This document shows, piece by piece, positions 1,653 through 41,701 of a stretch of 64,000 nt of DNA. Each line of letters opens with the position of its first letter. Positions within the stretch are counted from its first letter, which is position 1. Below the pieces are notes generated by a model. It saw only the letters and a list, made by a program, of their open reading frames with translations. It ran no database searches and had not been told where the DNA came from. Source of the DNA: Sipunculus nudus. Its lineage: Eukaryota > Annelida > Sipuncula > Golfingiida > Sipunculidae. The stretch spans positions 1,449,318 through 1,513,317 of the forward strand of contig CM049314.1 of assembly GCA_026874595.1 (NCBI GenBank), given 5' to 3'. The position numbers were made by a program, and so were the translations under genes.

Positions 1653-1826
1653 ATGACGAACGGAGACCTTAAGTGGTCCGTGTCTTCCTTCAATCTGCCG
1701 AGTCACGTGATCAGGATGACGTCATCGGATGATAAAGAATTTACCTGGACCAATCACGGGCTTGAGTGTTTTAAACAACACAAGCCAAACGTGGACATAG
1801 AAGCCGTTGTGAAGAACCAGTACGAG
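1653..1826 (+). CDS. AOS-LOX exon 1 of the coding region
   Basis: Encodes about 58 residues. The segment from FTWTNHG to KNQYE aligns with the N-terminus of coral AOS (MTWKNFG onward). The ATG at 1653 directly follows a TTTTAACAG acceptor-like site, so a noncoding 5' exon further upstream is likely. The donor is GAG|GTATAG. The true start could also lie in an unseen upstream exon. Confidence 0.75.
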
Positions 1827-4800
1827 GTATAGTCGAAGTTAAAACAATTAACTGGGCATTCATTATTAATCATGCCAAATTTACTATCAGCAAAAAAAAA
1901 AAAAAAACCTCAATACACAAAACCTCGAATTTGAAATGAATTTGTAAACGTTCTGCGTCGTACAAAATACACTTTTATATACTATGCCCCTTGGCTTTGC
2001 TCTGGAAACACCAGAAATACAAACAGTAAAACAAAAGTTTCTTAAATCATGGGGATCGGTTACAACGGGCATTTTATTGTGGCCACGTTGTATTAACTAT
2101 GCAACTAAATCTCTTAACATATTATGATGCCAACAATTTAACCTGCATTGACACGGTCAATTTACAATAGCCCCATACATTCAATATAATAATGAGTCAT
2201 TAAAATAGGCGCATCAGTTTATCACATTCCTGTTATATTACTGGCTAAAGAGATACAACACAAAAACATTGTATGCAAATTGTTTATTGTCTGGGTTCTG
2301 TGGCTCACGGGAAGAGCGCAGGACTCAAAGCCGGGAGATCGTTGGTTCGAATCTCAGCCGAGGCGGTGAGGTTTTTTCACGGTCGGCCCCGCCCAGGGTG
2401 AGCGCTCTGCAGGCTTAATGGGAAGGCTGTTCCCAACAGCCGTATATCACCCCCATACGAGTGCGTCTTTTGGGGGTTCCTCAGTGTAATGACCAAGCAA
2501 TGGGGATGCTCTAGTAAATTGTTAGGTGCTATACTTTATGAAGCACCTTGTAAGTTGTAGTTCTAGTATAGTTTGAGGTGCTATACTTTATGAAGCACCT
2601 TCTAAGTTGTAGCTCTAGTATATTGTGAGGTGCTTAAATTTACGAAGCACATTGTAAATTGTGGCTCAAGTATATTGTGAGGTGCTATACTTTATGAAGC
2701 ACCTTGTAAGTTGTAGCTCTAGTATATTGTGAGGTGCTTAAATTTACGAAGCACATTGTAAATTGTGGCTCGAGTATATTGTGAGGTGCTATACTTTATG
2801 AAGCACCTTCTAAGTTGTAGCTCTAGTATATTGTGAGGTGCTATACTTTATGAAGCACCTTGTAAGTTGTAGCTCTAGTATATTGTGAGGTGCTTAAATT
2901 TACGAAGCACATTGTAAATTGTGGCTCGAGTATATTGTGACGTGCTATACTTTATGAAGCACCTTGTAAGTTGTAGCTCTAGTATATTGTGAGGTGCTTA
3001 AATTTACGAAGCACATTGTAAATTGTGGCTCGAGTATATTGTGAGGTGCTATACTTTATGAAGCACCTTCTAAGTTGTAGCTCTAGTATATTGTGAGGTG
3101 CTTAAATTTACGAAGCACATTGTAAATTGTGGCTCGAGTATATTGTGACGTGCTATACTTTATGAAGCACCTTGTAAGTTGTAGCTCTAGTATATTGTGA
3201 GGTGCTTAAATTTACGAAGCACATTGTAAATTGTGGCTCGAGTATATTGTGAGGTGCTATACTTTATGAAGCACCTTCTAAGTTGTAGCTCTAGTATATT
3301 GTGAGGTGCTTAAATTTACGAAGCACATTGTAAATTGTGGCTCGAGTATATTGTGACGTGCTATACTTTATGAAGCACCTTGTAAGTTGTAGCTCTAGTA
3401 TATTGTGAGGTGCTTAAATTTACGAAGCACATTGTAAATTGTGGCTCGAGTATATTGTGAGGTGCTATACTTTATGAAGCACCTTCTAAGTTGTAGCTCT
3501 AGTATATTGTGAGATGCTTAAATTTACGAAGCACATTGTAAATTGTGGCTCGAGTATATTGTGACGTGCTATACTTTATGAAGCACCTTGTAATTTGTAG
3601 CTCTAGTATATTGTGAGGTGCTTAAATTTACGAAGCACATTGTAAATTGTGGCTCAAGTATATTGTGAGGTGCTATACTTTATGAAGCACCTTCTAAGTT
3701 GTAGCTCTAGTATATTGTGAGGTGCTTAAATTTACGAAGCACATTGTAAATTGTGGCTCGAGTATATTGTGAGGTGCTATACTTTATGAAGCACCTTCTA
3801 AGTTGTAGCTCTAGTATATTGTGAGGTGCTTAAATTTACGAAGCACATTGTAAATTGTGGCTCGAGTATATTGTGAGGTGCTATACTTTATGAAGCACCT
3901 TCTAAGTTGTAGCTCTAGTATATTGTGAGGTGCTTAAATTTACGAAGCACATTGTAAATTGTGGCTCGAGTATATTGTGAGGTGCTATACTTTATGAAGC
4001 ACCTTGTAAGTTGTAGCTCTAGTATATTGTGAGGTGCTTAAATTTACGAAGCACATTGTAAATTGTGGCTCAAGTATATTGTGAGGTGCTATACTTTATG
4101 AAGCACCTTCTAAGTTGTAGCTCTAGTATATTGTGAGATGCTTAAATTTACGAAGCACATTGTAAATTGTGGCTCGAGTATATTGTGACGTGCTATACTT
4201 TATGAAGCACCTTGTAAGTTGTAGCTCTAGTATATTGTGAGGTGCTTAAATTTACGAAGCACATTGTAAATTGTGGCTCGAGTATATTGTGAGGTGCTAT
4301 ACTTTATGAAGCACCTTCTAAGTTGTAGCTCTAGTATATTGTGAGGTGCTTAAATTTACGAAGCACATTGTAAATTGTGGCTCGAGTATATTGTGACGTG
4401 CTATACTTTATGAAGCACCTTGTAATTTGTAGCTCTAGTATATTGTGAGGTGCTTAAATTTACGAAGCACATTGTAAATTGTGGCTCGAGTATATTGTGA
4501 GGTGCTATACTTTATGAAGCACCTTCTAAGTTGTAGCTCTAGTATATTGTGAGGTGCTTAAATTTACGAAGCACATTGTAAATTGTGGCTCGAGTATATT
4601 GTGAGGTGCTATACTTTATGAAGCACCTTCTAAGTTGTAGCTCTAGTATATTGTGAGGTGCTTAAATTTACGAAGCACATTGTAAATTGTGGCTCGAGTA
4701 TATTGTGACGTGCTATACTTTATGAAGCACCTTGTAAGTTGTAGCTCTAGTATATTGTGAGATGCTTAAATTTACGAAGCACATTGTAAATTGTGGCTCG

Positions 4801-7800
4801 AGTATATTGTGAGGTGCTATACTTTATGAAGCACCTTCTAAGTTGTAGCTCTAGTATATTGTGAGGTGCTTAAATTTACGAAGCACATTGTAAATTGTGG
4901 CTCGAGTATATTGTGAGGTGCTATACTTTATGAAGCACCTTCTAAGTTGTAGCTCTAGTATATTGTGAGGTGCTTAAATTTACGAAGCACATTGTAAATT
5001 GTGGCTCGAGTATATTGTGAGGTGCTATACTTTATGAAGCACCTTCTAAGTTGTAGCTCTAGTATATTGTGAGATGCTTAAATTTACGAAGCACATTGTA
5101 AATTGTGGCTCGAGTATATTGTGACGTGCTATACTTTATGAAGCACCTTGTAAGTTGTAGCTCTAGTATATTGTGAGGTGCTTAAATTTACGAAGCACCT
5201 TCTAAGTTGTAGCTCTAGTATATTGTGAGGTGCTTAAATTTACGAAGCACATTGTAAATTGTGGCTCAAGTATATTGTGAGGTGCTATACTTTATGAAGC
5301 ACCTTGTAAGTTGTAGTTCTAGTATAGTTTGAGGTGCTATACTTTATGAAGCACCTTCTAAGTTGTAGCTCTAGTATATTGTGAGGTGCTTAAATTTACG
5401 AAGCACATTGTAAATTGTGGCTCGAGTATATTGTGAGGTGCTATACTTTATGAAGCACCTTGTAAGTTGTAGCTCTAGTATATGGTTAGTTTGAATACTT
5501 TATGAAGCACCTTTTAAGTTGTAGCTCATTATATTTTGAGGTGCTATACTAAATGTCGCACCTCGTAGGTGGTAGCTCTAGTAGGTTTTTAGGTGCTGCT
5601 GAACCTATCTGTTCAGCTGAATTCTGGATGTGTATTAGTTCAAAAATTTAAAATCTGTTACGGTGAATACTGAAAATCCACTTATATGCCATTGAGTGAA
5701 TAACTGAATTTACAGATATGTAAAGTCCATACATGATGTAGATTGCTTTGGTATTAGCATTCAAAATTACTACTATACTTCTATAAAAAAATTCATTCCT
5801 ACTTCATTGATGATATTTATGTTATATAAATATTATCATTGCAAATAAGATAGGGCTTCCTTTAAGGTTAGAATGTTTTATTGTACAGAAAGACTGTACG
5901 CTTAGAAGACTCTGTCTCTGATCATCCAGGTTCTGGGGCCTATAGGCCGCAATTTACGCCAACCTGGCAACGCTGGATTTCAAGTTTGTGCAGTTTATAA
6001 ATTTTCCGATATTATAATTTTACTTTAAAAGGATGCCAAGCGGAAAGAGAACGTCCTTGTCCGAGCTGGTTTCAGGATGAAGAAAGGTAAACTCCGCCTT
6101 CTGTACAGTGGCGACGCCATACCACAGAAAGGGAAACCATGTCATCCGAGAGGGGTCGGAGGATCTGGGTATGCCGTGGTTGTTGACAACCCAAAGTTTC
6201 CTGAACACGAGTTCTTCCGCCCTGGGAGAATCTTCCCCGTGCGCATGCGCCACAGTAATGCTTCATTTGAAGATGACGCCATGGTCGACGGCCGTGTAGC
6301 CTGCATAAAGGTTGGTAAATAGTTCTCACTTATACATATTTCTTATCCATAAACTAGCAGATATATTACATGTATATATATTCATATATGATATGGTAAT
6401 GTTTGGGAGAACAAGTATACATCCCTAAGAATTCAGATACTGAGGTTTACTTCCGTCTTTATTTTCCACACGACAGGAAGTAACATATCTCTAAGAGACA
6501 CCTTTTTTCTTATGAGATCATGTATTAATATTATTTTAATTATTGTTATGAACGAAGAATTACGTTTCACAGAATAGTTATGGAATTGTGTTTTACATGA
6601 ATACTACTCCGGGCATCTGATAAAATGATTAGTAGACATTTTATTAAGAAACTAAAATGTAATGGAAGGTCTTTTTGTAACCTTATATTCAATGCCCCTA
6701 TTTCCATATACTTTACTTTTTCAGTTTGGGGACACGGATCAGGGCTCTCCCCTGGACTTGATTCTGCGTACTGGTCGGGTCGGTCTGTACCACAATGCTG
6801 AGGCCTTTGAGGGATACAGGGACGCTTTCCTTAAGGGAGGGATCCACACCAAGGCCTGGTGCCTGCAACAACCCACCAAGTAGGTCACGTGGAACGCCCT
6901 TATTAGCATATGAATATACTAGACGCAGGCCGTATACAGTCAATAACGGCGCATTTTATATATGACAAGAACAGGAACATTGACCTTTTATTAACTAGAT
7001 GGCGCTCTCATGTTGTCAGTGGTAGAGATACATATTTTTTATATACAGCGCTTGGGTTTCTGAAACGCAGAATTCAATTATGTGGTATTTACAAGCAGAT
7101 ATTTCACGCTTCCTTCAAGATAGCGCAGTTTGGAGCACTTGGTACGCTATTACACGCTGTTTCGGCTGGTTAAATGGATGTATCTTTTAAACAAAGACTT
7201 TCAGCAGTGTATGGACAGCATATGTCAGGCTGCCGCTTCATGTTTTAGGTGGATAATCGGGGCCTCGGCTACTTAATTTGACTGTTGCCCTCAACGTTAA
7301 AATAACAAAGTATGTTGGTATCTTTGATTTTGCAAGCTGCGGCCAAAACGGGTTCAGTGATACGTGGGTTACCTAAAGGGGTGTGGTTGAACCAATCACT
7401 GTTGACAGAGTCAGTGGTGAGCTAGGGTGATTAAACAATACTTGCATGGGTGACTAAGAGTACCGCTAAATACATGTAAACTTAAACAAAGTGAATAATA
7501 CGTTTATAGTGGAATGTAAGAATATGTTAACTTAAACGTTAATACATATACGCTGCCTTGCACAAGGGTGTTAGTACAAGATACAAGCACATCAGCCGAC
7601 AGAAGCGGATCCCGGGGGGGGGGGGGAGGGGTCAAGGGGTCCCCCCCCTGTTTTCCTCCTGGAACCCCCCCCCCCATTCCGGACCCGGGGACCTTTTTTT
7701 TAGGTTGTTTTTCGTTAGTCCTCCTGGCTTGCACCCTCCCTTTTTTCCTAAATACTGGATTCCCCTGGACGATATATTGTGGTCAGACTGATAGGTTGAT

Positions 7801-10800
7801 CGTGAAAGTTTCATTTGAAAATGATGGGTTGCCCCCCCCCCCCCCCCCAACAAACAATCCCCCCACACCCTTCGCAGCCTTGAAAACTGTTTCTTGCTAA
7901 ATTTGGGAAGGCGATTCTGAAGCAACTCAATGCATTAAATGCAAATGTTTCAGATAAATCAAATACAATTGCAAATGTAATGAACTTTGTCAGCTTACAA
8001 ATGCCATAATAAAGGTTGTCAAATACTGATGCACTTGTAAATGCATTCTAACTTGAACTATATTTTGCCACATGATATCAAGATAGGTGTGTATGCCCAT
8101 ATATCATAATGTCCTCACTATGCAGAGTACTCTTAATAACATAGAGATATAAACTCACTCTACCTTGGGATATATTCCTTGGACTCTTTTCACATTTATG
8201 TGTCAAGTACAATCATTACATTATTAACACTTTCTGTAGAAGCATGGTGTATTTCCCCAGTACTTTCGATACAGTGCTGATATGTTATGTACAATCATTA
8301 CATTATTAACACTTTCTGTAGAAGCATGGTGTATTTCCACAGTACTTTCGATACAGTGCTGATATGTTAAGTACAATCATTACATTATTAACACTTTCTG
8401 TAGAAGCATGGTGTATTTCCCCAGTACTTTCGATACAGTGCTGATATGTTATGTACAATCATTACATTATTAACACTTTCTGTAGAAGCATGGTGTATTT
8501 CCCCAGTACTTTCGATACAGTGCTGATATGTAAAGTACAATCATTACATTATTAACACTTTCTGTAGAAATATGGTGTATTTCCCCAGTACTTTCGATAC
8601 AGTGCTGATATGTTAAGTACAATCATTACATTATTAACACTTTCTGTAGTAGCATGGTGTATTTTCCCAAGTACTTTCGATTACAGTGCTGATATTAGAG
8701 GTACAATCATTACATTATTAACACTTTCTGTAGAAGCATGGTGTATTTCCCCAGTACTTTCGATACAGTGCTGATATGTTAAGTACAATCATAACATTAT
8801 TAACACTTTCTGTAGAAGCATGGTGTATTTCCCCAGTACTTTCGATACAGTGCTGATATGTTAAGTACAATCATTACATTATTAACACTTTCTGTAGAAG
8901 CATGGTGTATTTCCTCAGTACTTTCGATACAGTGCTGATATGTTAAGTACAATCATTACATTATTAACACTTTCTGTAGAAGCATGGGGTATTACCCCAG
9001 TACTTTCGATACAGTGCTGATATGTTAAGTACAATCATTACATTATTAACATTTTCTGTAGAAGCATGGTGTATTTCCCCAGTACTTTCGATACAGTGCT
9101 GATATTTTAAGTACAATCATTACATTATTTACACTTTCTGTAGAAGCATGGTGTATTTCCCCAGTTCTTTCGATACAGTGCGGAAAGCTATCAGGCCGGA
9201 CATACCATTGTTGCATTTTGGTATGTTTGTAATTTGTTTTATAGTTATGTTTGGTGTTTGTACAGCTTTGGCATTAGATGGATTGCTATTAGCTGGCCAT
9301 AGTCCAACTATCGGTAAAATAAGATGAAATATTACAATACAAGTTTTTATGAGCTAGCTTAAGCTAATAAAAAATGTATTGTCTCGTGACCCATCTGCCT
9401 TGAAATTACCATATTATTTCTCCACCAGTGAATTATTTTAAGTCATAATACGGGTTCATGTAATTTGATTCAAATAATGATAACTCTTTTATTTGCATTT
9501 CTCTTGAATCCTCTATCAACCTCAGTCAATAAAGTACGAATGTTAATAGATAGCTAAAAGGATACAAAATATGCTGTCCTTTTAGTTTAATCAGCGGCGT
9601 CAACTAGTCCAGACTAGATTATCGCTGTGACAGATCTAGGGTGAACCCTTCATGAAAACAGCTCGGAATTCCCTTCTACCCGTCCTCACACCAAGCAATA
9701 GTTAGCGATGACATTTATAGTTTGTATAAATCTTTGTTTTGTTTTAGTTACTTTGCTCGTGTTGATCACATGCGTCGTGAGCCCACGTCTTACCATGATC
9801 AGATCTATCACAGTCACGTGGTGTACACGTTCGTCTCCAAGCAGAATCAGACTTTACTGGCACGGTTGCGCCTCCTGGCGGACGATCTGAAACAAGAGAC
9901 CGGACTGCTCTCGCAGGAAGACCAGGAGAATGTATGGTATGTCTGATATTATAAAGAACTCTTTGCCTTGTGTCAATATATAGCATATATTTCTCTTCAT
10001 ATATAAATCGTCTTTTAATTGTGTATTCACTTTGTAACACCTGATTCTTTAACATTGTTTTTGTTATTGGTCATTCAGTATTTAACATAAAGCTTCACCG
10101 GATTACACATTTTTTTTTACATAAATGGGTTTCATTAACAACCAGCTGGTACAATTCCTGACAGGGTGAACTTTATTGTTTTTACAACTGTTTACATCCG
10201 TTAAGCTCCTGTTTGACAAAAAGATAAGTTTATTCAGCAAAAATAAAACTTGTCAAACCGTTTGAGAGGGGACTTTTGCTCTCGTTGTCAACTTAGTTAA
10301 CAATTCTATTTTAAACGTTTTTATGAACATTCTAGCTGAAAAAATCATGAAAATAAAACTGGATGAAAACGTATTAAAATAAATTTACTGAAATGTCATT
10401 GGTTAGATAGTTATTTCAAAACATGTGCATATAGTAGACCTTGCTTCTTGACTTGGTGCTAGCTGCAGGAATAAATAAAAAAAAGACTTGTCTAAATATC
10501 AGGTAGAGATATCCACTTTGATCAAATACACCATTTGTGTTAAAACAAGATGGCTGAATATGTCCTCATGAAGTCTTGTGACAACTTATTTGGGAAATAT
10601 TCATGATATATTAAATTCTCATTTAGGGAATGTGATCGTCGGGGGGACACGGGACTGCCATCAAACTACCTGAGGAAGGAATATACAGAGAGGATCAACA
10701 CAGGTCCAGTCAAATACAAGATACAAATACAGCTGTGTAATCCTAAGGAGAGCCAAGACGACCTTGACATTTATAACCCTTGCTTAGAATGGCAGGACCC

Positions 10801-13800
10801 TACCCCAGAATGGCTTGACCTGGCCACCATCACTTTGTTCTTTCACCTTCCCGAAGATTTGATTTTGAAGACAAAGTTTAGCTTGACACACTACCCGCCA
10901 TCATTTTATATACCAGAAGCAACGTCAACGAGGGACTTCCGATCAGTAGCCACGGCAACGGCAGACCTTCATGGTTCAATTGCAGAAAATGGAGATCTGG
11001 ATGACGGTGTAAAAGAGAATAAAGAAGAAACAAATAACGTCACATATTCAGTAACCATAGAGACAGGGAATGAAAAGAATGCTGGGAATGACTCAACTGT
11101 ATACATTACAATTACAGGTAAAACAAATCTTGTCTGAGTCAGAATGGCGATATTTTTCACGAACATTTTACTGGATTGATGCAAAGTTGAATGCTTGTGA
11201 CATTTACTTTATAGTATGAGAACATGTACATCAAACCTATTGTTTACGCATAGCCAGAACTCTGAAAGCTTAACCACCGTACAACGGAAAGTGGTCGGAA
11301 AGAAGAGTCGAAATCAACACTGATGTATACTGGTTGTATGAAACATGATTTGTTTGAATATTAGAACCAAAATCAGATAAGAAAACTGTGGTACTAATAC
11401 TTCCGGAAAAAAAAATCTTATTTTTACTTTGTAAATTATATCTCAATATTTAAGGCACGGAGGGAAGAACCGGTCCAATTTGCCTAGAAAACGTGCTCCA
11501 TCACTTCCAACAGGTCCCTGATCATGCCATGGAGGTAACAGCGCCACCTGTGGGGGATATGATCACAGTGCAGGTAAACATGACCGATCACCATATACCA
11601 GACATGATCAGAGTGCTGTGAGCGTGACCGATCACCATATATCAGACATGATCAGAGTGCTGTGAGCGTGACCGATCATTATGTCTCAGACATGATCAGA
11701 GTGATGTGAGCGTGACCGATCACCATATATCAGACATGATCAGAGTGCTGTGAGCGTGACCGATCATTATGTCTCAGACATGATCAGAGTGCTGTGAGCG
11801 TGACCGATCACCATATACCAGACATGATCAGAGTGCTGTGAGCGTGACCGATCATTATGTCTCAGACATGATCAGAGTGCTGTGAGCGTGACCGATCACC
11901 ATATATCAGACATGATCAGAGTGCTGTGAGCGTGACCGATCATTATGTCTCAGACATGATCAGAGTGCTGTAAGCGTGACCGATCACCATATACCAGACA
12001 TGATCAGAGTGCTGTGAGCGTGACCGATCATTATGTCGCAGACATGATCAGAGTGCTGTGAGCGTGACCGATCACCATATATCAGACATGATCAGAGTGC
12101 TGTGAGCGTGACCGATCATTATGTCTCAGACATGATCAGAGTGCTGTGAGCGTGACCGATCATTATGTCTCAGACATGATCAGAGTGCTGTGAGCGTGAC
12201 CGATCACCATATACCAGACATGATCAGAGTGCTGTGAGCGTGACCGATCATTATGTCTCAGACATGATGAAAATGTAAAGAAAGTAATTACTGTAATAAT
12301 TGTTTTGTGGTTTGACGGTCCATGTCAAACATGAACCTTCTGACAGTTTTAGTTGAAAAAAATTACCGTGATATCTGAAATAAAAGCACAAAGCTGCTGG
12401 TAGTGCTAATGACAACATTAATTAAAGCATTCGCACATTTCATTCATGATTTTACGACGACACTAATTTTCTTAGCTGGACCTCCAGTCTGCATCTACGT
12501 ACAGTGAATGGCTCATTGAATATGTCACCATAACGGAAAAGAACTCTAAAAAGGACGTGCGTTTCCATGGTTATGGCTGGTTGACAACACATGAACCTAC
12601 ATTCATTTTGAGGCGAGCGGAAGGTATCCGATAATTTAATTTTTTTTTTTGCTAATGGTAGTAATAACTTTTTTAATATTGTTATCATTATTATATACAC
12701 GAGTTATTTTAATTTTAATAGTAGACCCTATTTAAAGCTATGTTACATGGATCAATTTATTCAGGTTTTTTTTAATTCATTCATCTGAATTTTAAGTACT
12801 AGTATGTGATTATTTGGTGGCCAAAGAATCTGAAACCAACCACAGAGTGTAGACATTTGCATCTCCTGAATCGGTAAAACTAGGGCTCAACCCTTATTCC
12901 AGTAAGCTGTGTGTTCACGAACTGACACAGACTGAATACAATACATTGGTCCTCGTTCACAGCAATCCTGCCACAAAGAGAACAGTCAGATTTCAGTTAC
13001 CTGCAGCGAAAATATGAAGTGGAGGCACGTCGGGAGAAATACCATTGGGAAAAGGTTGAGGGGTTACCTGGACGGATACGCGCAGCCGCCCCCAATGACC
13101 TGCCACGTGACGCAAGGTTCAAGGACGAAAAGCAGTCTGACCTGAGTGCGAAATATTGGAGGACTCTTGCGAAAACCGGAGTTGGAAATGGTAAGGCTGC
13201 CTTTAACGCGTTTAATCCCCTGACAGACTACGTGTCGCTGATCAGTGGTCTGATGAAGAAGAAAGATTGTGTAGAGAGGATAGCCGCCTACTGGCAGGAG
13301 GATGCAGAGTTTGGGAGACAGTTCCTCAATGGTGTCCATCCACTTCGGCTCACCCGGGTGACATCATTTGATGAAAAATCAAGCATAACCGAAGAGGTTC
13401 TCTCCCGATACCTGGATAGAGGATTGACCTTGCACGAGGAAATAGACGTATGTATAATTCAAAATTATAATATAAATGATAATTCAAATATTGATATAAA
13501 CAGAGACCTTAAGAGAGCGAAGGTATCTTTCCAAAGGCCAAATGATTTGTTATATTCACCTGGTGCTTAAACACAGCTTTATACATACACCCTTTTCACA
13601 TGCAAAGTGCTAGTTGCATTTAAGAGTTTGAACACTTTTTTAGCATTTAAAACCCCATTGTAGAAGTTTTCAAAAGCGATTGCGGTTTGCTTGTGTTCCC
13701 ATTTATGCACATTACTCTAGAAATGGGGTATTTTAATTTACCGTTAACCAAATATCTTTTTTTTCAGATTAATCATAAAATGTTTTGCTAAACGCCATCC

Positions 13801-16302
13801 AAATCGGCAAGAGTAGGAATAAATAATTAAGTAATAAGTATTATGGTTAATTAATTGACAAGCTCAATAGTGCCGCCTTTGAGTAGTATATGACTTGTAA
13901 CGGGTAGATTAGAATATATTTAGCAAATTTTAAGAATAAAAGTTTAAAAACAAAAACAACGCTAAGCATGTAGGCAATCGAAAAGCCATATCCTCACACA
14001 CAAACGACGTAATGCATTTTATATGAAAATATTCAAATGTAAACAAAGGTTGATTTCATATTCTAGCATATTTAGACTACGATGGCCAATTTTGGACTTC
14101 GAAAAGCTAGTCATCTTACTTTAAAATGTTAAAGCATGATTATTGTTCTTTTTCATAGTCTTCTTTTTGACATGAAACTATCTTGTATCGTCACTTTCTT
14201 GCATTTTCTTCATAAATTGCAAGAACCAAATAGAGTGGAAAACATTTAAAACTCGCAGTTTGACTCGTATTTTTGTTTTGCAAATAAATTGCAACAGCAT
14301 AAACGAATGGTGTTAATATTTATGGGATTTCTTATAAATTGCAATGACATATTTGAATAAAAAGAACTGCTCATGTATCGTGTGATTTGTTTTTAAATTA
14401 AGTACGATTACATAAGTACCATTTAAAATACTCATACTGCAAATTTGGTAATTTTATTTCTTTATTTTTTTCCTCGGTAGGCTGGACATGTTTACATTTT
14501 GAATTACCCCGAGTTCGTTGGAAACGAGGTTCTCCCTGACAGTTCTGGCCAAGGCAAGTGTCACATCCCTTCGCCCATCTGTCTATTTTACGTGAAACCA
14601 TCAGGTGACCTTGTCCCTATAGCAATACAGTTGTACACCACGGCCGAAAAAGACGCTCCAGTGTGGACTCCAGCAGACGACACGTTGGACTGGACGCTCG
14701 CTAAAATGTGGGTCAAGCTAGCAGACGCGCATACGCACCAGTTGTTTTCGAGGCAACTTAGGTGTCACATGATTATGGAAGCTGTTGCCATTGCAACGAT
14801 GAGAAACCTGCCTTCCATGCACCCTATTTTCAAACTGCTTATTCCTCACCTGGGCGATGTCGTTGCTGTCAATGCGAACACACGCATGTCACTATACAAG
14901 GCCACGGATTTGGAGAAATTTCTCGCAGCGGGTTCACATTCTGAAAAATTCCTACGCATAGCCTACCAACGGTTCCGGTTGTCAGATTTACACGTGCCGA
15001 ATGAGTTACGTAGACGCGGGGTAGCGGAGAAGGAAAAATTACCGAACTACCATTTCAGGGACGATGCGTCTGAGCTATGGCGCATCCTGCAAAAATTTGT
15101 GCGCATCGTGGTGATGTTGCAGTACTCGGACGACAAGCATGTTAAAAATGATGAGGAGCTCCAGTCATGGATCCGAGATCTACATGACAACGGGCTTCCT
15201 CAGTGGGAGGGGGATATGGACCACGAGGTACCGAGTTCGATCCCCTCCATTGACAGACTGATTGATTTTTTGACCATCATCATTTTTACCACATCTTGCC
15301 TGCACTCCGCCCTGACAGCGGGAATGATGCATCATTACGGATTCTGTCCAAATTATCCTCCCCTGCTAAGGACAGCGCCACCTATTGTCAAAAGAAAAAT
15401 TGAAGAAAAGGATATCCACGCCGCCTTGCCAAACCGGAAGCAGACGGCCCAGATCGTTGCTGCGTGTTATACACTGGCTAAAGCTAACAGGGATGAAGTA
15501 TGTGTTTTTTTTCTTAATTTTGATAAACAGCTAAATAGGACAAAAGTTAAAAGAAATAATCGCAAATATATCATAACAACTAAATAGGACACAATGTAAA
15601 AAATTAAACACAAAGATATCATAACAGATAAATAGGACAAAATGTAAAAGATATAATCACAACTATATATTAACAGCTAAATAAGACAAAATGTAAAGGA
15701 AATAATCACAAATATACCATAACTGTTAAATAGGACAAAATGTTTAAGAAACAATCACAAATATATCATAACAGATAAATAGGACCTCATGTAGAAGAAA
15801 TAATCACAAATATATCATAACTGTCAAATAGGACAAAATGTAAAAGAAATAATCACAATTATATATTAACAGCTAAATAAGACAAAATGTAAAGGAAATA
15901 ATCACAAATATACCATAACTGTTAAATGGGACAAAATGTAAAAGAAATAATCACAATTATATATTAACAGCTTAATAAGACAAAATGTAAAGGAAATAAT
16001 CACAAATATACCATAACTGTTAAATAGGACAAAATATAAAAGAAATAATCACAAATATACCATAACTGTTAAATAGGACAAAATATAAAAGAAATAATCA
16101 CAAATATATCATAACAGATAAATAGGACCTAATGTAGAAGAAATAATTTCAAATATATCATAACTGTAAAACAGGACAAAATGTAAAAGAAATAATCACA
16201 AATATATCATAACTGTCAAATAGGACAAAATGTAAAAAAAATCACAAATATATCATAACTGTTAAATAGGACAAAATGTAAAAGAAATATTCACAATTAT
16301 AT

Positions 16303-16370
<68 letters not shown>

Positions 16371-17173
16371 CAACATGTACAAAAAATAAATCACAAATAT
16401 ATCTTAACAGCTAAATGAGACAAAATGTAAAGAAATAAACACAAATTTACCAAAACACCTAAATAGGACAAAATGTAAAGAAATATTCACAAATACAGTG
16501 AAACCTCGTTGTGTCGAAGTCGAAGGGACCCTCAGAAAACTTCGACACATCCGAGGTTCGACATAAGCGGGTTTAATTGGTTATAATTTAACTAGAGTTG
16601 TCCGGAATATCGAGCCTGTAACTTCGACATAAGCAGGGTATTCGACTTAAGCGAGTTCGACACAACGAGGTTTCACTGTATATCATAACAGCTAAATGAG
16701 ACAAAATGTAAAAGAAATAAACACAAATATACCAAAACAGCTAAATAGGACAAAATGTAAAGAAATATTCACAAATATATCATAACAGCTGAATTGGACA
16801 AAATGTAAAAGAAATAATCAGAAATATATCATAACAGTTCAATAGTAAAAAAATATAACAAATAATATTAACAAATAAGTTGATATTATTTTAATTCCGA
16901 TATTTTACCAGCTGTTTGATTGATTGAGAAAATTTTACGTTTTAAGTCGTATATCTCTGTATCTAACTAATAAAGTTTATTGTTTACCAGCTATTTCTCG
17001 GGCAGTACCCTGAAAATCACTTCTGCAGTGAGACAATCAGCGCGGCAGTGGAGGTCCTGCAGTGTGAGCTGGAGGGGCTTGGTAAAGCCATCGGGGAGAG
17101 AAACAGGGACCTGGGTGACAGTGCTTACACCTATCTGCGCCCAGAGAAAATACCCAACAGTGTCGCCATCTAG
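1653..17173 (+). CDS. Allene oxide synthase-lipoxygenase (AOS-LOX) fusion homologue, ten coding exons
   Basis: Exons (1653-1826, 6032-6310, 6725-6879, 9748-9936, 10627-11117, 11455-11573, 12476-12623, 12963-13447, 14481-15497, 16991-17173) join in phase with GT/AG introns to 3240 nt, about 1079 residues; the coral fusion is about 1066. Residues 1-395 resemble the catalase-related AOS, about 403-518 the PLAT lipid-binding domain, about 519-1079 the lipoxygenase. In corals the LOX part makes an arachidonate 8R-hydroperoxide and the AOS part turns it into an allene oxide. Here the LOX keeps iron ligands H766, H955 and C-terminal I1079, but R771 and T959 stand at the other two. The AOS keeps distal H96, but has C95, R166, T377 and H381 where coral has T66, N137, R349 and Y353. 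Homology is clear. Catalytic activity is doubtful: a pseudoenzyme, an altered enzyme or an early pseudogene are all possible. AATAAA lies at 17182. Confidence 0.9.
2293..2500 (+). mobile_element. tRNA-derived SINE, family A, copy 1
   Basis: The tRNA-like head GTGGCTCACGGGAAGAGCGC (box A type) is followed by a perfect box B, GGTTCGAATC, at 2344-2353. A core follows with CCCAGGGTGAGCGCTCTGC, CAACAGCCG and TTTTGGGGGTTCCTC. The same core recurs in reverse orientation at about 25.2-25.4 kb, which shows it is a dispersed family. It lies in intron 1 of the AOS-LOX gene, directly before the 52-bp array. Confidence 0.8.
2510..5590. repeat. 52-bp tandem array with 104-bp higher-order organisation
   Basis: Nearly 60 head-to-tail 52-bp units of two alternating types: GTGCTATACTTTATGAAGCAC and GTGCTTAAATTTACGAAGCAC, each followed by a related tail. 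Each unit opens with a short inverted repeat (GTGCT..AGCAC or GTGCTT..AAGCAC). The array decays at its 3' edge (5480-5590). It occupies much of intron 1 of the AOS-LOX gene. Confidence 0.95.
5591..6031. other. Rest of AOS-LOX intron 1
   Basis: Unique-looking AT-rich intron sequence between the satellite array and exon 2. No element recognised. Confidence 0.5.
6032..6310 (+). CDS. AOS-LOX exon 2, haem distal side of the AOS domain
   Basis: 93 codons, phase 0 on both sides. It contains CHPRGVGGSG: the His (codon 6143-6145) matches the distal His67 of coral AOS and the Cys before it replaces Thr66. It also holds FPEHEFF and RHSNASFEDDA, both strongly conserved in the coral enzyme. The donor is AAG|GTTGGT. 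Confidence 0.9.
6725..6879 (+). CDS. AOS-LOX exon 3
   Basis: Encodes GDTDQGSPLDLILRTGR and onward, matching the coral stretch that includes Asn137. At that position this protein has Arg (codon 6767-6769). The acceptor is TTTTTCAG and the donor AA|GTAGGT, leaving two bases for the next exon. Confidence 0.88.
7590..7870. repeat. Poly(G)/poly(C)-rich block in intron 3
   Basis: A G tract of more than ten bases follows GGATCCC near 7610, then C tracts near 7643, 7665 and 7831, with GGATTCCCCTGGAC in between. The alternation of G and C runs gives strong inverted-repeat potential. It could be a degenerate transposable element flanked by GGATCC-like motifs; the family is not identified. Confidence 0.6.
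8205..9185. repeat. 82-bp tandem repeat array in AOS-LOX intron 3
   Basis: About twelve copies of a unit beginning GTACAATCATTACATTATTA and ending GATACAGTGCTGATATGT. Copies are nearly identical, with a few point changes and small indels (for example near 8660-8695), implying recent expansion or homogenisation. Confidence 0.95.
9748..9936 (+). CDS. AOS-LOX exon 4
   Basis: 63 codons of the AOS domain, including a HMRREP...YHDQIYHSHV stretch like the catalase-family helical segment in coral AOS. The acceptor is TTTTAG. The donor TATG|GTATGT leaves TG, completed to Trp by the first base of the next exon. Confidence 0.88.
10627..11117 (+). CDS. AOS-LOX exon 5, end of AOS domain and start of PLAT
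   Basis: Encodes YLRKEYTERI..GPVKY, which aligns with coral AOS, then the region of the proximal haem ligand. Without gaps from the PPS/PAS motif onward, coral Arg349 falls on Thr (10958-10960) and coral Tyr353 on His (10970-10972). A charged, low-conservation linker follows, then TYSVTIETGNEKNAGNDSTV, the first PLAT strands. Confidence 0.9.
11455..11573 (+). CDS. AOS-LOX exon 6, PLAT domain
   Basis: Encodes GTEGRTGPICLENVLHHF and VGDMITVQ, matching coral GAKGRTDYLKLDKWFHNDF and DVGDIQLIE. The donor is CAG|GTAAAC. The minisatellite in the next intron starts at this donor and resembles it. Confidence 0.9.
11574..12272. repeat. 44-bp minisatellite with alternating variants in AOS-LOX intron 6
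   Basis: About sixteen 44-bp units of TGAGCGTGACCGATCA..CAGACATGATCAGAGTGCTG. Two variants, CACCATATAYCAG and CATTATGTCTCAG, mostly alternate, giving an 88-bp higher order. The first unit merges into the exon 6 donor: exon ATATGATCACAGTGCAG followed by intron GTAAACATGACCGATCACC resembles the unit. Confidence 0.95.
12476..12623 (+). CDS. AOS-LOX exon 7, end of PLAT domain
   Basis: Encodes STYSEWLIEYVTITEKNSKK and FHGYGWLTTHEPTFILR, corresponding to the final PLAT strands (WFVNRVIVISS and the CFRWV region in coral). The acceptor is TTTTCTTAG and the donor GAAG|GTATCC. Confidence 0.88.
12963..13447 (+). CDS. AOS-LOX exon 8, N-terminal LOX region
   Basis: About 162 codons with LPRDARFKDEKQSD, FGRQFLNGVHPLRLTRV and YLDRGLTLHEEID, standard conserved blocks of animal lipoxygenases. 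The true exon ends at GAC|GTATGT (13447); the reading frame simply runs on into the intron to 13570. Confidence 0.92.
13448..14480. other. AOS-LOX intron 8, nothing recognised
   Basis: AT-rich, unique-looking intron without recognisable repeats, RNA gene or extra exon. Confidence 0.5.
14481..15497 (+). CDS. AOS-LOX exon 9, LOX catalytic core
   Basis: 339 codons. Contains WTLAKMWVKLADAHTHQLFS, where the first iron His (14736-14738) is kept and the ligand five residues later is Arg (14751-14753). RNLPSMHPIFKLLIPH, SWIRDLHDNG and VPSSI are conserved. In CLHSALT the His ligand (15303-15305) is kept and the ligand four residues later is Thr (15315-15317). HHYGFCPNYPPLLRTAPP follows as in other lipoxygenases. 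Confidence 0.92.
16307..16367. repeat. (AT)n microsatellite
   Basis: About 60 bases of pure AT dinucleotide inside the 49-bp array, probably grown from the ATATAT motif already in the unit. Confidence 0.95.
16496..16678. mobile_element. Pogo/Tigger-type MITE with TA target duplication
   Basis: 183-bp element with long terminal inverted repeats: CAGTGAAACCTCGTTGTGTC at the left and GACACAACGAGGTTTCACTG at the right, perfect over 20 bases. It is flanked by TA on both sides (16494-16495 and 16679-16680). Subterminal TTCGACATAAGC motifs also repeat. There is no coding capacity. CAGTGAAACCTCG-type ends and TA duplication fit the Tc1/mariner-pogo group. Confidence 0.85.
16991..17173 (+). CDS. AOS-LOX exon 10, C-terminus
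   Basis: Begins LFLGQYPE after a TTTACCAG acceptor and ends RPEKIPNSVAI-stop. The C-terminal Ile is the carboxylate iron ligand of lipoxygenases. The final helix and the IPN(S/G)xAI ending match coral 8R-LOX. Confidence 0.92.
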   Translation, partial: LFLGQYPENHFCSETISAAVEVLQCELEGLGKAIGERNRDLGDSAYTYLRPEKIPNSVAI

Positions 17174-32019: not shown

Positions 32020-34176
32020 TTCTCATGCAGTTCGGTCAGCCACTTAGGGTATAGTGCTCATGCACTTCGGTCAGCCACATTGCGTGTAGTGCCATCTCCT
32101 CATGCAATTCGGTCAGCCACTTAGCGTGTAGTGCCATCTCCTCATGCACTTCGGTCAGCCACATTGCGTGTAGTGCCATCTCCTCATGCAATTCGGTCAG
32201 CCACTTAGCGTGTAGTGCCATCTCCTCATGCACTTCGGTCAGCCACATTGCGTGTAGTGCCATCTCCTCACGCACTTCGGTCAGCCTCTTTGCGTGTAGT
32301 GCCATCTCCTAACGCACTTCAGTCAGCCACTTAGCGTTTAGTGTCATCTCATCATGCACTTCGGTCAGCCACATTGCGTGTAGTGCCATCTCCTCATGCA
32401 CTTCGGTCAGCCACTTAGCGTATAGTGCTCATGCACTTTGGTCAGCCACATTGCGTGTAGTGCCATCTCCTCATGCAATTCGGTCAGCCACTTAGCGTGT
32501 AGTGCCATCTCCTCACGCACTTCGGTCAGCCTCTTTGCGTGTAGTGCCATCTCCTAACGCACTTCGGTCAGCCACTTAGCGTGTAGTGTCATCTCATCAT
32601 GCACTTCGGTCAGCCACACTGCGTGTAGTGCTATCTCATCATGCACTTCGGTCAGCCACTTAGCGTGTAGTGCCATCTCATCATGCACTTCGGTCAGCCA
32701 CATTGCGTGTAGTGCCATCTCATCATGCACTTCGGTCAGCCACACTGCGTGTAGTGCCATCTCCTCACGCACTTCGGTCAGCCACTTAGCGTGTAGATCC
32801 ATCTCCTCACGCACTTCGGTCAGCCTCTTTGCGTGTAGTGCCATCTCCTAACGCACTTCAGTCAGCCACTTAGCGTTTAGTGCCATCTCCTCATGCACTT
32901 CGGTCAGCCACTTAGCGTATAGTGCTCATGCACTTTGGTCAGCCACATTGCGTGTAGTGCCATCCCCTCATGCAATTCGGTCAGCCACTTAGCGTGTAGT
33001 GCCATCTTCTCATGCACTTCGGACAGCCACTTAACGTGTAGTGCCATTTTTTCATGCACATCGGTCAGCCGCATTGCATGTAGTGCCATCTCCTCACGCA
33101 CTTCGGTCAGCCTCTTTGCGTGTAGTGCCATCTCCTAACGCACTTCGGTCAGCCACTTAGCGTGTAGTGTCATCTCATCATGCACTTCGGTCAGCCGCAT
33201 TGCATGTAGTGCCATCTCCTCACGCACTTCGGTCAGCCTCTTTGCGTGTAGTGCCATCTCCTAACGCACTTCGGTCAGCCACTTAGCGTGTAGTGTCATC
33301 TCATCATGCACTTCGGTCAGCCACACTGCGTGTAGTGCTATCTCATCATGCACTTCGGTCAGCCACTAAGCGTGTAGTGCCATCTCATCATGCACTTCGG
33401 TCAGCCACATTGCGTGTAGTGCCATCTCCTCATGCACTTCGGTCAGCCACACTGCGTGTAGTGCCATCTCCTCACGCACTTCGGTCAGCCACTTAGCGTG
33501 TAGATCCATCTCCTCCCGCACTTCGGTAAGGCTCCTTGCGTGTAGTACCATCTCATGATGCACTTCGGTCAGCCACTTTGCGTGTAGTGCCATCTCCTCA
33601 GGCACTTCGATCAGCCACTTAGCGCGTAGTGCCATCTCTTCATGCACTTCGGTCAGCTACTTTGCGTGTAGTGCCATCTCCTAACGCACTTCGGTCAGCC
33701 ACTTAGCGTGTAGTGCCATCTCCTCATGCACTTCGGTCAGCCACATTGCGTGTAGTGCCATCTCCTCATGCACTTCGGTCAGCCACATTGCGTGTAGTGC
33801 CATCTCCTCAGACACTTCGGTCAGCCACTTAGCGTGTAGGGCCATCTTCTCATGCACTTCGGTTAGCCTCTATGCGTGTAGTGCCATCTCCTCAAGCACA
33901 TCGGTCAGCCACACTGCGTGTAGTGTCATCTCCTCATGCACTTCGGTTAGCCACATTGTGTGTAGTGCCATCTCATCATGCACTTCGGTCAGCCACACTG
34001 CGTGTAGTGCCATCTCCTCACGCACTTCGGTCAGCCACTTAGCGTGTAGTGCCATCTCATCATGCACTTTGGTCAGCCACACTGCATGTAGTTCCATCTC
34101 CTCACGCACTTCGGTCAGCCTCTTAGCGTGTAGTGCCTTCTCATCATGCACTTCAGTCAGCCACTTTGCGTGTATT
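32020..34176 (-). repeat. 42-bp coding-type minisatellite encoding a 14-residue repeat
   Basis: About fifty units of CATGCACTTCGGTCAGCCAC plus (A/T)TTGCGTGTAGTGCCATCTCCT. On the minus strand these read M-A-L-H-A-(K/M)-W-L-T-E-V-H-(E/D)-E. The period of 42 keeps the frame open over long stretches, broken where a unit has TAA for TCA or is shortened. Larger blocks are themselves duplicated: a shortened unit with GTATAGTGCTCATGCACTT appears near 32045, 32415 and 32915. The array continues in frame from the transposase fragment at 34.2-34.4 kb. Confidence 0.93.
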
Positions 34177-34560
34177 GGCTTGATTGTTGACATCTTGCTA
34201 TCAACTTTCACGGCTTGTATGTCATCTGCGTCTTCTGTGTCGTTCATTTGGCCGACAACCATATCAGTATACCATTGGTTGTATTGTTGTTTTAGTGATG
34301 TCTTATATTCTTTATTGAACGATAGATCCAAAGGCTGCAGAAGGTTCGTGCATGCATCTGGCATCATGCAATTGCGAATATTATTTTCACAACCTTTAGT
34401 ATACCAGTGTCTGTGCGTACACGATGTTCACGAGGAGGGCTGTCTGGCGTTGATTTTCCATTTTTGTCCTCTGCTTGTGAACGTAAGGCAGGATGATGTT
34501 GTCGGAAAAGCGAAGCATCGTGTTTTTCATTGCTCAAGTGATTATATTGCGGCGTGGTAA
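34177..34560 (-). pseudogene. C-terminal fragment of a pogo/Tigger-like DDE transposase
   Basis: On the minus strand: ILPYVHKQR and ENQRQTALLVNIVYAQ (34.5-34.4 kb), then, after a frame change, ACTNLLQPLDLSFNKEYK and WYTDMVV, then STIKPIHAKWLTEVHDE. The CTNLLQPLD signature and the late ST-KP-HA-WL block are typical of the DDE_1 superfamily end. The catalytic acidic residues lie further N-terminal and are not present. The last codons flow directly into the 42-bp array. Confidence 0.8.
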
Positions 34561-36041: not shown

Positions 36042-36824
36042 ATGAACGACTCGCTCATTCGCGCTGCAAGACTCAAAAGGGACTCCGTTGAGCCCTCACT
36101 ATTAAAAGCCCATGGTGATCTTTGTGAGAAAATCAAAGCTGAGTGGATGGCAAAAGTAAATAAAATGACTTTACATGAAACCAACATATTTACCAAAAAC
36201 AAATGTCTACGAGATATCCGTAGTAAACTTTCAAAATTAAATAATGTTCCAGATGAGGTAAGAAATTGTGATAGTTGGTTCATGGCAAACGGAATTGCCA
36301 ACACCGTGAGTGAACGGAAGCAGGCATTAGCAAAGCAGTCCGTGTGCCCTAGAACAGATGATAATTCTTCTGCAGCCAGTCAACGAAAGTCAAAGAATAC
36401 TCGCAGCTCGATAAAACGAAAATCCTTAACTAGTGTCCCGTCGACAGCTGGTCAAGTATTAATCTCCGCTGACCAGACATCATCATCTCCTGTGTTATCT
36501 ACATCGGCGGGATCGAACCAAAATACTGCCAGTGCTGCTCTGAATACTCAGAGTAAATCTAATGACAATACTTCGATTCCAGAGCAAAGAAATGTTTATT
36601 GTTCTTATAAGTGTATCTACAGCAAAAAACATAGTGACCAATCTATGGTGCAATGTACTTTATGTGTTAAGTGGTTCCACTGGAACTGCACTGGCGACCT
36701 AGAAAGTGAATACCCTACCGTTTGGACTTGCCCCACTTGTCGTGTTCTTCCAGAAACGGTAAACGCAATAAACATCAAACTTGAAAAGCTCCTGGTATTA
36801 CATTCAGATCTACATAAGGTATGA
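36042..36824 (+). CDS. CR1 ORF1, PHD-finger protein (5' part)
   Basis: 260 codons. The first half is basic and Ser-rich. The C-terminal part from about residue 186 has the Cys/His pattern C-x3-C..MVQCTLCVKWFHWNCTG..WTCPTC, a PHD-type finger as described for CR1 ORF1 proteins. The frame stops at 36822-36824 before the esterase-like block, so ORF1 is probably interrupted. It would act as an RNA-binding or chaperone-type partner of ORF2. Confidence 0.75.
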   Translation: MNDSLIRAARLKRDSVEPSLLKAHGDLCEKIKAEWMAKVNKMTLHETNIFTKNKCLRDIRSKLSKLNNVPDEVRNCDSWFMANGIANTVSERKQALAKQSVCPRTDDNSSAASQRKSKNTRSSIKRKSLTSVPSTAGQVLISADQTSSSPVLSTSAGSNQNTASAALNTQSKSNDNTSIPEQRNVYCSYKCIYSKKHSDQSMVQCTLCVKWFHWNCTGDLESEYPTVWTCPTCRVLPETVNAINIKLEKLLVLHSDLHKV

Positions 36825-37104
36825 TCGCATAAAACTCATGAATGTGACAGACTTAGAGAGGAAAACTCCTAGCTTAAACAACAACTGGTGAATGGAACCC
36901 ATCACCACGAATCATCGAACTCCTGTCAATCATATATCACCATTGATCGCACTTCGGACGCATCAAACATCATACCCTCCGACGACGATGGGCCTGGTGA
37001 TATGTCTTGATGACACAACGTGTTCTACATCAGAATCGTCTTTATCTGATTATGAAGGTGATGTCTCTTTCCAGGAATGTGAGCTAGCCAGTGCTCCTTA
37101 GCCA

Positions 37105-37690
37105 GTGAATACATCCCACCATTCTACACCAATTATCGCCCAGCGTGGAAACCCGACGACTATAGAACATCTTCGTTCCAAATCGTCCTTGGGTCTCACT
37201 ATTCTTGGTGATTCCATGACGAAAAGACTTGACATCAATGCAATACAAAAGACCACACATGTTTCTATTCGTAAAAACTCCAAATGTTACACAATCGATC
37301 AGTCTAACGTCAGCTAACGTCTCTGATGATGCGGTGCTAGTACATGTTGGCACAAATCACATAGAACATGAATCTGCTCATGACATCATTAAGACTCTCA
37401 GAGAACTAGAAGAAATCTTGAAAAATAACGCAAATGTTAAATATATCATATTCAGTTCCGTTGTAGCTAGGAAGTGTGCATCATATGAAGCCAGGAAAAT
37501 AAGATTAGTTAACGCTGCCATAGAGGTTATGTGAGGTTATGTGGAAATAACAAATGGTCATATCTTGACAATATCAATATTGATTGTTCACACATTAGTC
37601 GGGATGGGGTACACTTGAACAAACGGGGATGTAGAGTTCTACACAGCAATTTTGCACATCTCATAGACTTGCTTGTCATATTCATAATGG
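37105..37690 (+). pseudogene. CR1 ORF1 esterase-like (SGNH) region, frameshifted
   Basis: Contains LGLTILGDSMTKRLD (GDS block) in one frame and VLVHVGTNHIEHESAHDI and IIFSSVVAR in another, with RDGVHLNKRG-like HLN sequence near 37605. These are the blocks of SGNH/GDSL-type esterases known from CR1 ORF1. A frameshift near 37300 and a stop at 37532 break it. Confidence 0.7.
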
Positions 37691-37788
37691 TACAGAATCA
37701 ATTGAGTTAGTTTAGCGATGAAAACTCCACGTCATTCAACCTACCTACCGTACTCAATAACGACCCAAAGCTTCCGATAATAAATAAC

Positions 37789-38796
37789 GTGTACTCATTA
37801 GCTGATGAGTTGCCCAGCTTATTAGAAGCTAAGGGTACAATTTTGGCGCATCTTAATGTACGCAGTTTAATACCGAAAGTTGATGAGATTCGCCAAATGT
37901 GCTTTCGTTTCAGGCCACATGTTTTAGCTTTAACCGAGTCTTGGCTTGACAAACATGTACTTGATTCTGAGGTGTCCATCGAACTTTATGTGCATTTTAG
38001 ACACGACAGACACCGACATGGCGGAGGTGTAATTATGTATATTTTAACATCCCTAAAACCGCAAGTATTTCAGCCAGTGTTTGGAAGCATTAAAAGTGTA
38101 TGGGTGAAAATTTCTCTCGGGATGAAAACTATTTTAATAGGATCCGTTTACAGGCCTCCGATTGCATCAAGTGAATATATTGATGATTTGCTAGATGTTA
38201 TTGGTCAAGCTTTTAAGATCTCTAAGTATGTCATTTTGTTAGGAGATTTTAATATTGATTACTTGCAGCCTAACAGGTTAAAATCAAGTAAACTTGATTT
38301 AGCAGAACGGTTATTTGGGATGAAACAACTAATTACTACACCTACTCGTGTTACCAAACATTCAAAAACATTGATAGACCTTATTTATACATCCAATCCT
38401 GAAATGCATTACAGTTCTAAAGTTTACCAGTTGACCCTGAGTGATCACTTTTTAACGGCAACAATTTTAAAGAAACAAAATGATGAAAAGAAGAATCCAA
38501 AATATGTACACTGTCGTAACTTAAGACTTTTTAACAAGGATAAATTCATTCAAGAAATATGTTCATCTTTTTTCATGTCATCTTTAATTCCTAACATGAC
38601 TGATCTTAATTTGGCATGGAAGATTTGGCAATCTGAATTTGAAAAAAACTGCAATAATAATGCTCCGTTCTACAAACGACGAGTAAAATCTACCCCCAAT
38701 AGATGGGTGACTGATAAAATACTAAATTTAATATATGCACGCGAATTTGCGAATAAAAAAGCAAGACGGACAAACAGTGCTTCTGACTGGAATTAA
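37789..38796 (+). CDS. CR1 ORF2, endonuclease part
   Basis: 335 codons with the APE-type order: LAHLNVRSL, LALTESWLD, HRHGGGVIMYI, GSVYRPP, ILLGDFNID, TRVTKHSKTLIDLIYTS and LTLSDHFL. It nicks target DNA to prime reverse transcription. The frame ends at a TAA at 38797, but homology continues in the same frame beyond it (YRRLRNTVTREIRKNRSRYY), so this is a premature stop within ORF2. Confidence 0.85.
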   Translation: MYSLADELPSLLEAKGTILAHLNVRSLIPKVDEIRQMCFRFRPHVLALTESWLDKHVLDSEVSIELYVHFRHDRHRHGGGVIMYILTSLKPQVFQPVFGSIKSVWVKISLGMKTILIGSVYRPPIASSEYIDDLLDVIGQAFKISKYVILLGDFNIDYLQPNRLKSSKLDLAERLFGMKQLITTPTRVTKHSKTLIDLIYTSNPEMHYSSKVYQLTLSDHFLTATILKKQNDEKKNPKYVHCRNLRLFNKDKFIQEICSSFFMSSLIPNMTDLNLAWKIWQSEFEKNCNNNAPFYKRRVKSTPNRWVTDKILNLIYAREFANKKARRTNSASDWN

Positions 38797-41535: not shown

Positions 41536-41701
41536 CTTATGAATGTCAGTTTATATGTCTGCTTATCTGTTTTACATATTGTCGATACTCGTACGTTATC
41601 ATTTGCTTTCAGAACTTCAAACCCTGAAGAATAATTACCATTCAAAAAAAGACCCAGCTTTGGTAGTATTTTTTAATCATACTCCTGAGGACACAAGCGC
41701 C

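Follow-up and report, generated by a model that had tools for sequence, protein, structure and literature searches.

The lipoxygenase (LOX) domain encoded at 14481-15497 in a 64,000-nucleotide stretch of the Sipunculus nudus genome (GenBank assembly GCA_026874595.1, contig CM049314.1, positions 1,449,318 to 1,513,317 of the forward strand; "the window," to which all coordinates refer) departs from the lipoxygenase pattern at residues that bind the catalytic iron. Does the gene that carries this domain still encode an enzyme, is it decaying, or has it been retained for a role other than catalysis? A first-pass annotation had proposed a pseudo-lipoxygenase. Here, we describe the complete gene and the state of its metal sites and weigh the possible explanations.

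An AOS-PLAT-lipoxygenase fusion gene

An open exon flanked by AG and GT lies at 14481-15497 (translation AGHVYIL...NRDE), and by itself it matches the Pfam lipoxygenase family (PF00305) far beyond chance (E = 2.3e-49). Its closest solved structures are 11R-LOX and the coral allene oxide synthase-lipoxygenase (AOS-LOX) protein. Upstream frames resemble the same coral fusion: 6029-6319 matches its catalase-like AOS domain (E = 1.8e-16), 10607-11134 the end of the catalase-like domain plus the beginning of PLAT (E = 5.4e-22), and 12926-13567 the first part of the LOX domain (E = 5.5e-20); the frame at 6656-6880 matches weakly by itself (E = 0.068) and is in register with its neighbors. Joining these pieces at GT-AG boundaries yielded a plus-strand gene at 1653-17173, with ten exons, nine introns that are all GT-AG with matching phases, and 1079 codons in which the only stop is the terminal TAG.

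In this splice model, exons 1 to 4 encode the catalase-like domain: exon 1 (1653-1826), its N terminus, was placed by alignment to the coral fusion structure 3dy5 from residue 2, exons 2 (6032-6310; AOS domain) and 3 (6725-6879) by their coral matches, and exon 4 (9748-9936) again by the 3dy5 alignment. Exon 5 (10627-11117; coral match) covers the end of the catalase-like domain and the start of PLAT, which continues, by alignment to 3dy5, through exons 6 (11455-11573) and 7 (12476-12623). The LOX domain starts in exon 8 (12963-13447; Pfam and coral matches) and extends through exon 9 (14481-15497; Pfam and structure matches) to exon 10 (16991-17173), which encodes the C terminus and the stop at 17171-17173. 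The ATG at 1653 comes straight after an AG, which leaves the start uncertain, and an additional exon farther upstream is possible.

The spliced protein aligned end to end with the coral fusion (phmmer, residues 31-1079 to residues 2-1066 of 3dy5, E = 4e-190), and the AOS domain structure 1u5u alone matched residues 31-375 (phmmer, E = 7.1e-61). Pfam recognized LOX (E = 7e-65; 220.2 bits versus a curated cutoff of 23.6) and PLAT/LH2 (PF01477; 47.2 bits versus a cutoff of 23) in the spliced protein and returned no catalase match, so the catalase-like domain is assigned by way of the coral structures. The catalase-like domain shares 116/366 residues (32%) with the coral fusion, PLAT 33/112, and LOX 212/556. 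Judged by its sequence, this is an intact AOS-PLAT-lipoxygenase fusion gene, with all three domains in one polypeptide and homology over its full length to the coral AOS-LOX enzyme, which converts a fatty acid into signaling lipids. The earlier claim that the whole fold is conserved stands as far as sequence homology goes; the single-sequence structure model, with a mean pLDDT of 37.3, was too poor for use. A tblastn search of the 64-kb window found no second LOX copy.

Long minisatellites are present in four of the gene's nine introns, at 2508-5597 (intron 1), 8201-9181 (intron 3), 11559-12268 (intron 6), and 15526-16495 (intron 9), with units of 104, 82, 44/88, and 49 bp, all different; as delimited by the repeat finder, the intron 6 array extends 15 bases back into the end of exon 6. 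Elsewhere in the window, two single-frame open reading frames of glycosyltransferase family 11 (fucosyltransferase-like), at 41543-42682 and 51168-52154 on the plus strand, are 62% identical over 323 amino acids and lie about 8.5 kb apart. The region at 36042-39679 (plus strand) likely holds the remains of a non-LTR retrotransposon, with an endonuclease and a reverse transcriptase in order but in separate frames, preceded by a weak PHD-like finger below the Pfam cutoff. A minisatellite-like repeat at 32039-34560 is open on both strands; its minus strand reads EMALHAKWLTEVH...

Two of five iron ligands are replaced

The iron ligands of human 5-LOX are H367, H372, H550, N554, and I673 (PMC13014066; PMC5113960). 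They correspond to H757, H762, H943, N947, and I1066 of the coral fusion and to R771, H776, H955, T959, and I1079 of the Sipunculus protein, the coral and human proteins being linked through the common motif HQxxTHLLRTH. The reported placement of 5-LOX Gln-363, His-367, Leu-368, and His-372 agrees with it (PMC9181373).

At the position of ligand 1, HQxxTH reads HQLFSR (14736-14753), and the codon AGG (14751-14753) puts Arg771 in place of 5-LOX His367 and coral His757. Ligands 2 and 3 are kept as His776 (14766-14768; 5-LOX His372) and His955 (15303-15305; 5-LOX His550). HxxxN reads HSALT (15303-15317), with Thr959 (ACA, 15315-15317) replacing the Asn ligand (5-LOX Asn554), and the protein ends in NSVAI, retaining the C-terminal Ile ligand as Ile1079 (17168-17170). 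Three of the five ligands are thus kept (Arg, His, His, Thr, and Ile, in order), and the set that a lipoxygenase enzyme has, three His, an Asn, His, or Ser, and a C-terminal Ile, is incomplete.

These assignments bear out most of what the first-pass annotation had read from the exon, namely, both altered motifs, the loss of two of the five ligands, and a retained third His. Its "first His," described as retained, is the His of HQ (H766), which is no iron ligand; the true ligand 1 is R771, which is lost. The terminal Ile is present as claimed, but it sits in the next exon rather than within 14481-15497.

With Arg771, the metal pocket would contain a positive charge, and Thr959 might still coordinate weakly. 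Turning either His codon into AGG takes changes at all three positions, and ACA is two nucleotides from any Asn codon, so neither can be one misread base, and we rejected a single base error at the ligand codons for this reason. Among 151 exon 9 columns that are identical in both coral LOXs, 90 are kept here. Retention was 2/9 within two residues of the lost ligands versus 88/142 elsewhere (P = 0.031) and 8/18 within four residues of any of four ligands versus 82/133 (P = 0.20), with both radii chosen after the sequence was seen; at most, these counts hint that losses cluster around the iron ligands.

Residues of the heme and calcium sites are also lost

The heme-site residues common to coral AOS and catalase, given as R64, R102, R360, T66, H67, N137, and Y353 in PMC5617202, read, respectively, Lys (6134-6136), Arg (6248-6250), Gly (10991-10993), Cys (6140-6142), His (6143-6145), Arg (CGT, 6767-6769), and His381 (CAT, 10970-10972) in the alignment, the last of these in place of the proximal heme ligand. 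Exon 2 carries the positions of R64, T66, H67, and R102, exon 3 that of N137, and exon 5 those of Y353 and R360. Two of the seven residues, Arg102 and the distal His67, are kept; the proximal Tyr353 is gone, and neither the distal Thr66-His67 pair with Asn137 nor the heme-coordinating Arg64, Arg102, and Arg360 are present as a set. This retention (2/7) is no better than identity across the domain (116/366), suggesting that the loss of the heme site is old. Arg349, which we take to be important in the heme site of coral AOS, reads Thr (10958-10960, exon 5).

No Tyr occurs in residues 361-405, the segment due to carry the proximal Tyr, and a misalignment at the Tyr353 site was rejected on these grounds. 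Beyond this site, the segment runs into an Asp/Glu/Asn-rich stretch. In the columns that read Thr...His here, a catalase-like piece from Sinorhizobium keeps Arg...Tyr. This relative, on Sinorhizobium fredii plasmid pNGR234a (L006, 1-1560), is annotated as two adjacent coding sequences and was matched as one stretch.

The calcium ligands of the 5-LOX PLAT domain are listed as N43, D44, and E46 in PMC5113960. The NDxE motif places them on coral N416, D417, and E419, which read His446, a deletion, and Gln448 in exon 6 of the Sipunculus gene, so that none of the three is kept. Coral Trp413 and Trp449, which have a role at the membrane, are replaced by Val (exon 6) and Tyr (exon 7), leaving neither of the two.

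Frame retention and alternative explanations

All three domains have lost many functional residues, and four introns harbor large minisatellites, as might be expected of a recently inactivated gene that is becoming a pseudogene, its catalysis lost and its frame not yet broken. Against this, no stop, frameshift, or lost splice site was found over 1079 codons and nine GT-AG introns. We simulated neutral decay of the coding sequence, starting from its present state and assuming uniform neutral change and no indels, by random substitution until the number of changed sites in a chosen set equaled the number observed. With a set of eight heme-domain sites (the seven residues listed above and Arg349), the simulated sequences had 35 stops at the median and never fewer than 9; with the five iron ligands, the median was 16 and the minimum 1, which makes the iron part less decisive. 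For either set, none of 300 runs was stop-free, a result that favors preservation of the frame by selection once catalysis had been lost. The age of the heme-site loss, at domain-average drift, is likewise at odds with a frame that is still whole. The codon of Arg771 is three changes away from His, and this Arg is therefore unlikely to be new. GC at third codon positions (0.55) still exceeds intron GC (0.24 to 0.44), in weak agreement with constraint. We regard recent inactivation as rather unlikely.

Could the protein instead still be an enzyme, with altered cofactors? His381 would then ligate heme in place of Tyr, and/or a metal would be held by His776, His955, and the Ile carboxylate. The distal His67 and Arg102 are indeed kept, as are two His and one carboxylate in the LOX site, but neither Arg349 nor Arg360 remains, the stretch after them is Asp/Glu/Asn-rich and devoid of Tyr, the distal Asn137 is Arg, and Arg771 would bring its positive charge into the metal pocket. 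An enzyme of this kind seems quite unlikely to us.

It is very improbable that one domain only, LOX or AOS, is dead and that the gene encodes half an enzyme working with active partners: losses in the two domains are separate changes and the LOX domain keeps three of five ligands, yet each domain has lost a ligand of the first rank, His ligand 1 in LOX and the proximal Tyr in AOS. A sequencing or assembly error or a wrong gene model can be set aside almost entirely, since, even with a single sequence at hand, it would take three errors in one codon (His to AGG) and two in another (Asn to ACA), and the splice phases fit throughout the gene.

Comparison with related proteins

The fusion of the coral Plexaura homomalla (PDB 3dy5, 1u5u, and 3fg1) has the same domain order and a similar extent (1066 versus 1079 amino acids). 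Unlike the Sipunculus protein, it has the iron ligands His757 and Asn947, Arg64, Thr66, Asn137, Arg349, Tyr353, and Arg360 in the catalase-like domain, and the calcium ligands of PLAT; all of these are lost here. Coral 11R-lipoxygenase (PDB 3vf1), which we take to be from the genus Gersemia, shares the PLAT and lipoxygenase domains and is 38% identical over exon 9; its match starts at the PLAT domain of the Sipunculus protein and not at the catalase-like domain. The four ligand columns checked in exon 9 are intact in this coral enzyme, whereas two are lost in the Sipunculus protein.

AOS-LOX and hydroperoxide lyase-lipoxygenase (HPL-LOX) fusions are known from soft corals. The cHPL-LOX of Capnella imbricata keeps the defined catalytic residues and owes its changed product to substitutions in the pocket (PMC5617202). 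Its architecture is that of the Sipunculus protein, in which, by contrast, the catalytic residues are gone. Studies of oyster, hard clam, mussel, and nudibranchs list transcripts named AOS-LOX among their regulated genes, and a seahorse ALOX sequence without the iron ligand clusters was set aside by its authors (PMC10531496). Among the matches listed from the open-licence literature, by title and opening of the abstract, there was no report of an AOS-LOX fusion without heme or iron ligands.

Bacterial lipoxygenases served as controls. A plasmid collection held eight bacterial LOX records, of which six were compared and two, further Rhodococcus records (H4 and H8), were left out. The ligand 1 column, which is Arg here, is His in both coral LOXs and in all six controls. 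Ligand 2 is His in 6/6, ligand 3 is His in 5/6, and the Asn and the terminal Ile are each present in 4/6. A control from Nostoc (L002) is without the Asn ligand and the terminal Ile. A "lipoxygenase family protein" on plasmid pAT1 of Aureibacter tunicatorum (L005, 1595-3436) is without the third His, the Asn, and the terminal Ile and is itself a possible pseudo-lipoxygenase. As two of six controls also depart from the ligand set at one or more positions, such losses are not confined to the Sipunculus protein. Pattern scans of viral and prokaryote contigs and of a phage collection found no relatives that would show the Arg/Thr pair to be conserved; the viral and prokaryote scans are insensitive, as they returned no bacterial lipoxygenases either, genes that the plasmid collection shows to exist.

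Discussion

All three domains lack key metal-binding residues and the frame is intact, so the protein probably has a job other than catalysis. We consider it probable that the gene is a retained noncatalytic AOS-LOX paralogue. The pseudo-lipoxygenase of the first-pass annotation fits with a frame that is intact across ten exons, an Arg codon three changes from His, and two other domains that are stripped as well; that annotation mislabeled one His and missed the AOS-LOX fusion.

In such a paralogue, heme and the catalytic iron would no longer be bound in the normal way, neither the 8-hydroperoxide nor the allene oxide would be made, and PLAT would not mediate calcium-driven docking to membranes; what would be kept is a folded, noncatalytic protein. 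A fatty-acid-sized pocket and the interaction surfaces of a LOX would remain. A regulatory or lipid-binding role, suggested by the first-pass annotation, may be envisaged on this basis, and the protein would most likely partner with an active (AOS-)LOX paralogue, compete with it or act as its decoy, or else serve as a fatty-acid sink.

Inactive human 5-LO splice isoforms offer an analogy. The isoforms delta-13 and delta-4 do not synthesize leukotrienes, coexpressed delta-13 lowered leukotriene formation, and a role of delta-4 as a regulator in heterodimers is discussed (PMC5113960). The Sipunculus protein would resemble them as a LOX-fold protein without such synthesis; the isoforms are splice products, whereas here a separate gene has substituted ligands. 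By analogy with that discussion, the protein would act as a partner or decoy for an active paralogue.

As a tentative extension of the retained, noncatalytic paralogue, a whole bifunctional oxylipin synthase may have turned into a pseudoenzyme, its iron, heme, and calcium sites dismantled long ago and its complete polypeptide kept by selection. As a structural guess, the guanidinium of Arg771 could replace iron as the positive charge facing the carboxylate of Ile1079; the Arg would then substitute for the metal and hold the C-terminal carboxylate, in what might be a metal-free fatty-acid receptor or an inhibitor of active paralogues.

If some of the genes named AOS-LOX have dismantled metal sites, then reading oxylipin synthesis from the name would mislead, and a residue-by-residue check would be needed. 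Roles of the LOX fold other than catalysis could also be studied cleanly in a dead fusion that has been kept whole.
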